Below, in pieces: positions 2,254 to 4,972 of a DNA stretch of 53,462 nucleotides. The position numbers were made by a program, and so were the translations under genes. The stretch is from an uncultured Litoreibacter sp. (GTDB lineage Bacteria; Pseudomonadota; Alphaproteobacteria; Rhodobacterales; Rhodobacteraceae), in NCBI GenBank assembly GCA_938030665.1, contig CALHHY010000013.1, forward strand, positions 1 to 53,462, read 5' to 3'. Each line of letters begins with the position of its first letter. Position 1 is the first letter of the stretch. Below the pieces are notes generated by a model. That model was not told the DNA's origin. It did no database searches and saw only the letters and a list, made by a program, of their open reading frames with translations.

Positions 2254-2286
2254 TTGCATCAGCGTATGTGAGAACATATGATGAAC
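2254..2286 (+). promoter_or_regulatory. SOS promoter: -35 TTGCAT, -10 TATGAT inside a LexA box
   Basis: TTGCAT (2254-2259), exactly 17 bases, then TATGAT (2277-2282) make a near-consensus sigma-70 promoter. GAAC (2272-2275), 7 bases, GAAC (2283-2286) is a perfect match to the alphaproteobacterial LexA operator (GTTC-N7-GTTC read on the other strand), and its spacer contains the -10 element. LexA bound there would block the promoter. Transcription is expected to start near 2289, which is the ATG of the next gene. Confidence 0.85.
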
Positions 2287-2288
2287 AT

Positions 2289-3524
2289 ATGGCGCAAAGA
2301 ACCCTCAAAGACAGGCTCGCGATTCTCAGCGACGCGGCGAAATACGACGCCTCCTGCGCGTCATCAGGCACGACAAAACGCAATTCTGCCGGCGGAACCG
2401 GGCTGGGGTCGACCGAAGGGTCGGGCATCTGCCACGCCTACGCGCCCGATGGCCGTTGCATCAGCCTGCTGAAGATCCTGATGACGAATTTCTGCATCTA
2501 TGATTGCGCCTATTGCATCAACCGGGTGTCGTCGAATGTGGACCGCGCGCGGTTCTCCGTCGATGAGGTGGTTTGGCTGACGACCGAATTCTACCGCCGC
2601 AACTATATCGAGGGGCTGTTTCTATCATCCGGCATTATCAAAAGCCCCGATGACACGATGGCGGATATGGTGCGCATCGCACGGGAGCTGCGGGTCACCC
2701 ACAACTTTCGCGGCTATATCCACCTCAAAACGATCCCCGATGCTGCCCCCCAGCTGATCGAGGAGGCTGGGCTGCTCGCCGATCGGCTGTCGATCAATGT
2801 GGAGCTGCCGACCGACGCAGGTGTCAAAGCCTACGCCCCAGAGAAGGAGCCTGCTACGATCCGGCAGGCTATGGGGGCCGTGCGGCTGAAACAGGCGGAG
2901 TATCGCGAGAAAACCCATACGGGCAGGCGAAAAGGCAATTTTGCGCCCGCCGGTCAGTCAACGCAGCTTATCGTAGGGGCGGATGGGGCCTCTGACACGA
3001 CGATCTTGAAAAACTCCACCGCGCTATATGCAAGCTACAAGCTGAAACGGGTCTATTATTCCGCCTTCTCGCCGATCCCCGACAGCTCCGCCAACCTGCC
3101 GCTGATCAAGCCGCCCTTGATGCGTGAACACCGGCTTTACCAGGCGGATTGGCTGATGCGGTTCTACGACTTTGCTGCCGACGACCTGACGTCGGAGGCG
3201 GAAGGTGACATGCTGGATCTGGCCATCGACCCGAAACTGAGCTGGGCGCTGAAAAACCGGGGGGTGTTTCCTTTGGATGTCAACCGCGCGGGGCGGGAGA
3301 TGCTGTTGAGGGTGCCGGGTTTCGGCGTCAAAACGGTGAACCGGTTGCTTGCTGCCCGCCGCATCAAGGCGCTGCGCTATGACGACCTGACCCGGCTGGG
3401 GGCGTCGTTGAAAAAGGCGCGCAGCTTTATCACGACGCCCGATTGGTCGCCGGGTGGGTTGACCGATAGCGAGGGGTTGCGCGCCCGGTTTGCCCCGCCG
3501 CCCGAACAGCTGAGCCTGTTTTGA
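2289..3524 (+). CDS. Radical SAM protein of the putative DNA modification/repair family, SOS-controlled
   Basis: This 411-residue protein matches the family annotated as putative DNA modification/repair radical SAM proteins. The 4Fe-4S motif is CIYDCAYC (C69, C73, C76), followed by a radical SAM barrel with GLFLSSGI and a C-terminal helix-hairpin-helix (RVPGFGVKTVNRLL) of the kind that grips DNA backbones. The reaction catalysed is not known to me. The start at 2289 gives MAQRTLKDRL, the usual beginning of the family; there is no Shine-Dalgarno sequence and the predicted transcription start coincides with the ATG. The stop overlaps the next gene start by four bases (TTGA), so the two proteins are coupled. 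The LexA box argues for induction by DNA damage. Confidence 0.9.
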   Translation: MAQRTLKDRLAILSDAAKYDASCASSGTTKRNSAGGTGLGSTEGSGICHAYAPDGRCISLLKILMTNFCIYDCAYCINRVSSNVDRARFSVDEVVWLTTEFYRRNYIEGLFLSSGIIKSPDDTMADMVRIARELRVTHNFRGYIHLKTIPDAAPQLIEEAGLLADRLSINVELPTDAGVKAYAPEKEPATIRQAMGAVRLKQAEYREKTHTGRRKGNFAPAGQSTQLIVGADGASDTTILKNSTALYASYKLKRVYYSAFSPIPDSSANLPLIKPPLMREHRLYQADWLMRFYDFAADDLTSEAEGDMLDLAIDPKLSWALKNRGVFPLDVNRAGREMLLRVPGFGVKTVNRLLAARRIKALRYDDLTRLGASLKKARSFITTPDWSPGGLTDSEGLRARFAPPPEQLSLF

Positions 3525-4972
3525 CCCATCTGGTGACGCTGCCATGGATCGGCACATTCGAGGCCTGGCGCAGCGCGGCGCGCGTTTTGGCCCAGTCAGC
3601 CGTGCCTGGCGCGCAAATCGAATGGCGGTTGGAGGGGGAGAGCGCGGGGCTGTTTGCTCAGACTGGTCCCTTGCCCGAGGGCAACGCGGGCGACCTCCCG
3701 GTGAAGGTGCCCAAGGATTTTCTGACGCTTTGCCGAACGGTTATCAGCCATAGCCACCAGGAACGCTTTGCGCTGGCCTATGATGCGCTCTGTCGGGTGC
3801 AGGACCGGCCCCGCCTTCTTGCCGACCGGACCGATGTGACCGTGGGGCGGCTTCACGAAATGGCCAAGAATGTCCGGCGGGACATGCATAAGATGAAGGC
3901 CTTCGTTCGGTTTCAGGAGGTCGGTGCGCCCGTCGCGGGGCGCCGCCAGTTCGCAGCCTGGTTTGAACCTACCCATCATATTGTCGAGCCGATCACCGGA
4001 TTTTTCGCGCGGCGTTTTGCGGATATGGATTGGGTCATCGCAACCCCGCGCATGACCGTGGCGTTTCGGGACGGTGTAGTTAGCTATGATACCTCCCTCC
4101 GGACCAAACCCGATTTCGAGGACCCGACGGAAGAGCTTTGGCGTACCTATTTCGCCAACATCTTCAACCCGGCGCGGCTTAAGGTGAAGGCCATGAGCTC
4201 GGAGATGCCAAAGAAATACTGGAAGAACTTGCCCGAAGCCGCGCTGATCCCTGACTTGATCGCGGGGGCGGAGGCGCGGGTGCGCGAGATGGCGGTCAAG
4301 GGGCCCTCGATTCCTCCAAGCCGGGCCGCGGCGATTACCAAAAGGCTGCAGGTCGCGAAGGCGCGCGAGATGCCAGAAGGCGGTCTCGACGGGCTGGCCG
4401 CCAGTCTTGAACGCTGGGCGCTATGCCCGATCGGAACGTGCGCGACGCAGGCCGTGCCAGGGGAGGGGCCGACAGACGCGGATGTGATGTTCGTGGGTGA
4501 GCAACCGGGTGACGTCGAGGATTTGAAGGGCCGTGTTTTCTGTGGCCCGGCAGGCCAGATGCTGGACCGCGCCTTCGGCGAGGCGGGGTTGGCGCGGGAG
4601 GCTTATTATCTGACCAACGCGGTCAAGCATTTCAAGTTTCAACCGCGCGGTAGACGCCGGATCCATCAATCGCCCGCCCGCGCCGAAATCGAGGCATGCA
4701 AATGGTGGTTGGAACAGGAATTAGCGTTGATCCGTCCAAAATTGATTGTGGCCATAGGGGCCACCGCGTTGGAGGCGTTGACCGGCATCCGCGCGGGCGT
4801 GCGGAACCGCCGGGGTCAGATAGAGGCCGGATTGGGTGGCGTCCCGGTCTATTCGACCGTGCATCCGTCCTATCTGCTGCGGCTGCCGGAGGGGCGGGAC
4901 CAGGAAGCGGGCTATGCTGGGTTTGTTGCGGATTTGAGGCGGGTGCCCGAGGTGTTGGCGTCGGTTGCTTGA
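3521..4972 (+). CDS. DUF4130 domain fused to a UdgX-type uracil-DNA glycosylase
   Basis: This 483-residue protein has two parts. Residues 1 to about 270 match the SAM/repair-associated DUF4130 domain that accompanies this radical SAM family. Residues of about 290-480 form a family 4-like uracil-DNA glycosylase with GEQPGD (near residue 326), NAVKHFKF and HPSYLLR. The loop RGRRRIH, with its histidine at residue 382, is the signature of UdgX, which in mycobacteria excises uracil and stays covalently bonded to the site through this histidine. It starts at TTG 3521 overlapping the upstream stop. The pair probably acts as one SOS-induced lesion-processing module; the role of DUF4130 is unknown. 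Confidence 0.9.
   Translation: MTHLVTLPWIGTFEAWRSAARVLAQSAVPGAQIEWRLEGESAGLFAQTGPLPEGNAGDLPVKVPKDFLTLCRTVISHSHQERFALAYDALCRVQDRPRLLADRTDVTVGRLHEMAKNVRRDMHKMKAFVRFQEVGAPVAGRRQFAAWFEPTHHIVEPITGFFARRFADMDWVIATPRMTVAFRDGVVSYDTSLRTKPDFEDPTEELWRTYFANIFNPARLKVKAMSSEMPKKYWKNLPEAALIPDLIAGAEARVREMAVKGPSIPPSRAAAITKRLQVAKAREMPEGGLDGLAASLERWALCPIGTCATQAVPGEGPTDADVMFVGEQPGDVEDLKGRVFCGPAGQMLDRAFGEAGLAREAYYLTNAVKHFKFQPRGRRRIHQSPARAEIEACKWWLEQELALIRPKLIVAIGATALEALTGIRAGVRNRRGQIEAGLGGVPVYSTVHPSYLLRLPEGRDQEAGYAGFVADLRRVPEVLASVA

Follow-up and report, generated by a model that had tools for sequence, protein, structure and literature searches.

A two-gene operon in a 53,462-nucleotide (nt) stretch of an uncultured Litoreibacter sp. 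(contig CALHHY010000013.1, positions 1 to 53,462, here called the window) couples a radical S-adenosylmethionine (SAM) gene to a DUF4130-UdgX gene behind a LexA operator. We read this operon, with a probability of roughly 0.6, as encoding an SOS-induced, clamp-recruited radical SAM/DUF4130 enzyme for DNA lesions, supplemented by an optional uracil-trapping UdgX module. Across relatives the operator and its promoter layout are conserved, the radical SAM protein keeps a C-terminal tail of the sliding-clamp-binding type, DUF4130 is a near-constant neighbour and UdgX is optional.

The gene order proposed in a first-pass annotation of this DNA was borne out by the family profiles, all of them above their cut-offs. 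The first gene belongs to TIGR03916 (rSAM_link_UDG; 576.5 bits, cut-off 343.5) and has the CxxxCxxC motif and the barrel fold of the radical SAM superfamily, its listed comparison partners being radical SAM enzymes by name. The second gene combines DUF4130 (TIGR03915, 198.1 bits, cut-off 112.25; Pfam, 140.2 bits, cut-off 27) with UdgX (TIGR03914, 285.7 bits, cut-off 189.95), including the motif-A glutamine and the RRIH loop with its histidine. The four-base overlap of the two genes is also present (TTG start at 3521, TGA stop at 3522-3524); the exact start of the second gene is uncertain, GTG at 3533 being another candidate.

The operon carries a conserved LexA operator on its promoter

The perfect GAAC-N7-GAAC box was found where the annotation had placed it, with the TATGAT hexamer inside its spacer. 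The annotation had also described a promoter with ideal spacing; the 17 bases between TTGCAT and TATGAT are indeed there, but the word fits the spacing alone: TTGCAT matches the consensus -35 at 3 of 6 positions, and a consensus promoter scan with a threshold of four matching -35 positions did not list the promoter at 2254-2282. The open frame of the radical SAM gene begins at ATG 2226, a start that we rejected because the relatives align to a start at ATG 2289, 2 nt behind the end of the box (2286). This start leaves the box in non-coding DNA, and the mRNA would have almost no leader or none at all; since the box covers the in-box -10 and the start codon follows closely, LexA would sit over both the -10 element and the point where transcription begins.

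Taken by itself the box is not significant: GAAC-N7-GAAC matches the window twice, where 1.49 matches are expected and 45 of 100 shuffled sequences also reach two, and the whole genome has 56, against 99 for the reversed pattern. We regard the box as real because it is conserved across relatives, and not from these counts. TIGR03916 proteins above the cut-off were found in 26 of 149 genomes of a family sample, 18 of 289 of a class sample and 84 of 398 of a phylum sample, which overlap and include the window's own genome. To these we added named loci from other Alphaproteobacteria, namely the best 80 of 578. The radical SAM gene is also present in Phaeobacter inhibens, its partner gene in P. 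italicus (L097) includes UdgX, and a Caulobacter vibrioides control genome gave a match. After removal of sequence duplicates the alphaproteobacterial set comprised 146 mutually related loci, the window's own among them, and the box was sought on either strand within 195 bp around the gene start. This search, named beforehand as the check on the annotation, found GAAC-N7-GAAC in 141 of the 146 loci, with 0.66 expected in all (0.0045 per stretch, from the rest of the same loci), while the reversed motif occurred in 3 and the Escherichia coli-type motif in 1. Of the five misses, L054, L125 and L158 have a box with one mismatch near the usual place, L061 is from a genome without a lexA above the family cut-off, and L057 is taken as a broken copy, its genome being 73% complete. 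In this last genome (G147, loci L057/L058) the radical SAM gene has no box before it and is spread over two reading frames, either because the copy is broken or through an error of assembly.

The layout around the box is conserved as well. Among the 130 alphaproteobacterial loci with a forward box (11 further loci have it in reverse orientation only), a TTG stands 17-19 nt before the box in 73, in 52 of them at exactly 18 as in the window, against 9 at control offsets of 28-30, and in 96 the in-box hexamer shares at least four positions with TATAAT. In 109 of 141 loci the reading frame offers its first start codon 1-7 nt behind the box.

Outside the class the box changes. In a set of 29 loci taken as beta/gamma, from 28 non-alphaproteobacterial genomes of the same phylum and from Caballeronia (L223), GAAC-N7-GAAC was absent from all, as was a scrambled control, whereas CTGT-N8-ACAG, the E. 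coli-type box, occurred in 20 loci and, allowing one mismatch, in 25 (expected per stretch, 0.0044 and 0.032, respectively). The lexA loci of two genomes (G472 and G505) have this box only with one mismatch. One genus (G515, G709 and G792) is an exception, its lexA having a TTAGTAGTAATACTACTAA box and its operon neither that nor any other recognised box; at these three loci (L199, L211 and L222; genus g465) a palindrome, TCTCATCCAATGAGA, stands before the operon in the place of the LexA box. The non-alphaproteobacterial count leaves out genome G498 and four loci (L224, L225, L226 and L228), which have neither GAAC-N7-GAAC nor CTGT-N8-ACAG, and G498 has no lexA above the cut-off; Acinetobacter is not known to have LexA. 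Before the radical SAM gene, AAACATATGTTC is found in an Acetoanaerobium locus and AAACAAATGTTC in a faecal contig (L226, L228), both of which, judged by eye, come close to the Gram-positive LexA box.

The operon shows the features of a member of the alphaproteobacterial LexA regulon: its operator lies on the promoter, is conserved in orthologues and also precedes lexA. The neighbourhoods of 43 of the 56 genomic boxes were read (30 loci and 13 chosen regions). A box stands 22 nt before the first GTG of the lexA frame and 20 nt before the first ATG of the recA frame, a uvrD/pcrA-like gene begins 41 nt behind its box, and radC and PdeM have their start codons inside the box. An imuA-like open reading frame follows 13 nt behind another box, scoring 27.4 bits, below the cut-off of 150, and many other boxes have nothing recognisable behind them. 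The lexA genes of three relatives (G399, G051 and G054) are likewise preceded by the box.

Taken together, the comparative test strongly supports the LexA control predicted by the annotation, a regulation that is not new. The motif GTTC-N7-GTTC, the box read on the opposite strand, is given as the alphaproteobacterial LexA motif in the excerpted text of PMC8565304, which describes a two-gene COG1573-COG4277 operon as SOS-regulated in Bacteroidetes, cites earlier reports of the same in Verrucomicrobia and Alphaproteobacteria, and proposes that it counters misincorporation by error-prone polymerases. COG4277 is taken here to be TIGR03916, matched by their descriptions; on this match the regulation, well supported here, is already published for the family. 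A radical SAM protein, not further specified, is also listed in other LexA regulons (PMC7739468, PMC9380542).

The radical SAM protein ends in a clamp-type peptide

The radical SAM protein of the window ends exactly in QLSLF, and the consensus of sliding-clamp-binding peptides is QL[SD]LF. A strict pattern, Q[LM]xL[FLW] within the last 14 residues, was present in 123 of 145 alphaproteobacterial loci, 21 of 29 non-alphaproteobacterial loci, G498 and none of the 5 other loci, against 2 of 3297 background frames; the background consisted of other complete frames of at least 150 amino acids from the same loci, read stop-to-stop and thus not all real genes, and the tail counts exclude duplicates and one locus cut by a contig end (L076). 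A wider penta- or hexapeptide pattern, defined after the tails had been inspected, covered all 145 alphaproteobacterial loci (136 penta-, 9 hexapeptides), 22 of the 29, G498 and 2 of the 5 others, against 10 of 3297; the remaining seven non-alphaproteobacterial tails are QASLF-, QGSLF- or QGALF-like. Exact QL[SD]LF was found in 47 of 145 alphaproteobacterial loci, while the background frames had none. The structure model shows a disordered tail (predicted local distance difference test, pLDDT, below 50), and the protein thus has the sequence features of a sliding-clamp client: QLSLF, conserved, in a disordered terminus. By its looks the tail could dock the protein on the DNA-replication clamp, a hint at where in the cell it may act on DNA. 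In the open full texts searched we found no precedent for a radical SAM enzyme that has a clamp-binding motif or is placed at the replication fork.

A second radical SAM gene of the host genome, of the PA0069 family (L245, G000:C82:2182-3225, minus strand; 494 bits, cut-off 360), has an SOS box 12 nt upstream, and its product also ends in QLSLF. In the class sample, 54 genomes had a PA0069 member above the cut-off; 30 loci were taken from these, of which 27 were parsed (without L278, L279 and L281). The wider clamp pattern is present in 21 of these 27 members, the other six tails including QFSLF and QLSFL-like ones, and the box occurs in the 300-bp stretch of 23 (0.0092 expected per stretch).

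Three cysteines of the TIGR03916 protein conserved besides those of the radical SAM motif (C23, C48 and C57) are possibly ligands of an auxiliary Fe-S cluster, and profile comparison weakly matched a helix-hairpin-helix (HhH)-like motif with chains of RuvA and ComEA (E 0.03-0.11).

DUF4130 is a near-constant partner and UdgX an optional one

In 178 of 179 loci DUF4130 adjoins the radical SAM enzyme at a distance of up to about 570 nt (L227 is without it), these and the UdgX counts leaving out L057 and L076. UdgX accompanies DUF4130 in 125 of 144 alphaproteobacterial loci, 12 of 29 non-alphaproteobacterial loci and none of 5 others, that is in 137 of 178, and is absent from 41; L065 is counted as positive because its UdgX was found beyond the flank. 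In a search of 38 genomes for UdgX, 25 lacked the fusion and 23 of these 25 had nothing reaching the UdgX cut-off, six of the 23 showing weaker hits (110-154 bits) that are probably other uracil-DNA glycosylases (UDGs); a separate UdgX copy was found in two unfused genomes (G181 and G407). When presence of UdgX is mapped on a tree of 129 DUF4130 domains (quick method), it changes at least 14 times, six of the changes being forced by starred branches. UdgX as an obligatory partner is rejected on these counts.

Where UdgX is present its chemistry looks intact, as judged from the residues kept: 132 of 136 UdgX domains have the cross-linking histidine and 131 the motif-A glutamine. The R-loop histidine is identified as the cross-linking residue in the excerpted PMC10359453, and neither its main text nor that of PMC10776899 contains the words operon, SOS or DUF4130. 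Four fused UdgX domains (L131, L150, L152 and L220) are without this histidine.

In a second fold comparison the structure model of DUF4130 (pLDDT 89) aligns with RecJ/Cdc45 proteins from residue 1 to about 201, with borderline scores; 169-182 residues are superposed in the top 24 rows at a root-mean-square deviation of 3.9-5.5, and 33 of the 50 rows span both halves of a RecJ/Cdc45-type protein. The DHH-DHHA1 superfamily, to which RecJ and Cdc45 belong, is marked by DxD and DHH metal motifs, and neither was found among the conserved columns of 58 DUF4130 sequences. In our reading DUF4130 may be a catalytically dead RecJ/Cdc45-like domain. A sequence search of DUF4130 against the PDB returned nothing useful, and no Pfam relative rose above chance-level hits.

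Proposed mechanism and alternative readings

In the mechanism that we favour, LexA bound at 2272-2286 would block transcription by covering the -10 element and the start point, and DNA damage would release it. The radical SAM enzyme would hold DNA through its HhH-like motif while the free QLSLF tail docks on the sliding clamp, and such docking would set it to work at stalled forks or in the gaps behind them, like translesion polymerases. DUF4130, the fixed partner, may hold the DNA or the lesion, and a damaged base would be converted through the radical chemistry of the two proteins together. UdgX would be a module added in some lineages that traps uracil or apurinic/apyrimidinic sites covalently and is dispensable for the core reaction. 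No gene identifying the substrate was found. The families are known chiefly by name, and the open full texts searched yielded no report on the chemistry of either the radical SAM or the DUF4130 domain.

Alternatively, the pair could be a mutagenesis factor that modifies a base or the polymerase complex for translesion passage instead of repairing DNA. SOS polymerases have clamp-binding tails, and the clamp-type tail found here fits this reading, as does the SOS control. It also agrees with the excerpted PMC3765255, where DUF4130, linked to radical SAM photolyases and UDGs, is predicted to be a mutagenesis-related enzyme with thymines as possible targets of modification. The present data do not separate repair from bypass. 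The window has no polymerase gene between the two genes or right next to either, and we consider this reading unlikely, though likelier than the other alternatives. It is improbable that the enzyme acts on nucleotides, RNA or protein, with an incidental SOS link and another role for its tail, because the HhH-like motif, the clamp-type tail, the SOS control and a DUF4130 partner often fused to a uracil-DNA-binding domain all point to DNA.

The first-pass annotation had proposed that UdgX forms a covalent adduct with DNA, or marks a lesion, for the radical SAM enzyme to repair or remove. The frequent presence of UdgX beside the alphaproteobacterial pair and the well-kept cross-linking histidine would suit such a joint reaction, which nevertheless finds no support as a general mechanism because UdgX is often absent while DUF4130 is near-constant: the 41 loci without UdgX, the 23 unfused genomes with nothing above the cut-off (even if six have UDG-like hits) and the repeated changes on the DUF4130 tree all speak against it. 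As the core function it is unlikely, and we give the proposal as a whole little credence. Finally, a chance box before an operon free of LexA control, which the lack of enrichment in window and genome would allow, is rejected as having almost no likelihood given the conservation in 141 of 146 relatives, the overlap with the promoter and the E. coli-type box that replaces it in most non-alphaproteobacterial loci.

More broadly, and as a tentative proposal that we hold less firmly than the favoured mechanism, TIGR03916 and PA0069 proteins, sharing a LexA operator and a clamp peptide, may form a class of SOS-induced, clamp-tethered radical SAM repair enzymes, with DUF4130 as a fixed, dead RecJ/Cdc45-like DNA-holding subunit and UdgX as an exchangeable uracil trap. 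If true, radical base repair would be coupled directly to the replication fork, and should the link to the clamp prove true of both families, radical SAM repair enzymes would be at work there. The new leads are the clamp-type tail, shared by two families of SOS radical SAM proteins and indicating the probable site of enzyme action, the near-constant DUF4130 and its possible RecJ/Cdc45-like fold. The radical SAM/DUF4130 core without UdgX is the pair to purify, so that the reaction is better sought elsewhere than at uracil.

Features and surroundings of the operon

The features of the operon are collected in Table 1. Its upstream neighbours (113-2234) are, on the minus strand, a Zur-like regulator scoring below cut-offs and a CreA protein and, on the plus strand, a ZnuA-like protein that is rich in His and Asp over a long stretch. 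Spread by phages was considered and set aside: IMG/VR contigs contained 2 relatives and a phage collection 10 records. Of the latter, 8 are labelled Bacteriophage sp. and come from human faeces, 2 are Acinetobacter 'phage' records, and the Acinetobacter record that was read has chromosomal-type neighbours.

Table 1. Positions in the window of the operon's control elements, genes, domains and motifs.
Feature	Position	Strand	Basis
-35-like hexamer TTGCAT	2254..2259	+	sequence; conserved TTG before the box in alphaproteobacterial loci
LexA operator GAAC-N7-GAAC, GAACATATGATGAAC	2272..2286	+	sequence; kept in 141/146 alphaproteobacterial loci
-10-like hexamer TATGAT, within the operator spacer	2277..2282	+	sequence; at least 4 TATAAT matches in 96/130
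Radical SAM gene, TIGR03916, 411 amino acids	2289..3524	+	profile score; alignment-based start
Stretch with conserved C23, C48 and C57	2355..2459	+	invariant in alignments A1 and A5, nearly so in the 24-row A3
Radical SAM motif CxxxCxxC (C69, C73, C76)	2493..2516	+	invariant in alignments A1, A3 and A5
HhH-like putative DNA-binding motif LLRVPGFGVKTVNRLLAARR	3303..3362	+	weak RuvA/ComEA profile matches; conserved VPGxG
C-terminal QLSLF, sliding-clamp-type pentapeptide	3507..3521	+	patterns in relatives; tail disordered in model
DUF4130 domain (TIGR03915/PF13566), RecJ/Cdc45-like model fold (borderline)	3521..4243	+	profile scores, model
UdgX domain (TIGR03914)	4244..4945	+	profile score, alignment
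UdgX motif A GEQPGD	4496..4513	+	sequence, alignment
UdgX R-loop RRRIH; cross-linking His codon 4664-4666	4652..4666	+	sequence, alignment; His role from PMC10359453 (excerpt)

Comparison with known systems

The TIGR03916 protein differs from lipoyl synthase, whose cysteine spacing is CX4CX5C, in its C-X24-C-X8-C spacing, its HhH-like motif and its clamp-type tail. The modelled fold of DUF4130 may be like that of RecJ/Cdc45 (DHH-DHHA1) proteins, the similarity being borderline, but DUF4130 lacks conserved DHH or DxD motifs. The UdgX domain aligns with UdgX of Mycobacterium (PDB 6ajo and related entries) in the GEQPG, RRIH and HPS motifs (E 1.5e-44), whereas in the window it is fused behind DUF4130 in an SOS operon. 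The PA0069-family/SplB-like radical SAM proteins of SOS regulons share with TIGR03916 the SOS box and the C-terminal clamp-type motif, in the host genome and in most of the class relatives read, but belong to another NCBIfam family. Closest is the COG1573-COG4277 operon of PMC8565304, which, matched by descriptions, is likewise a two-gene operon with a LexA box; in the excerpted text it is treated as a UDG repair system, whereas here UdgX is optional, DUF4130 is near-constant and the radical SAM protein bears a clamp-type tail.

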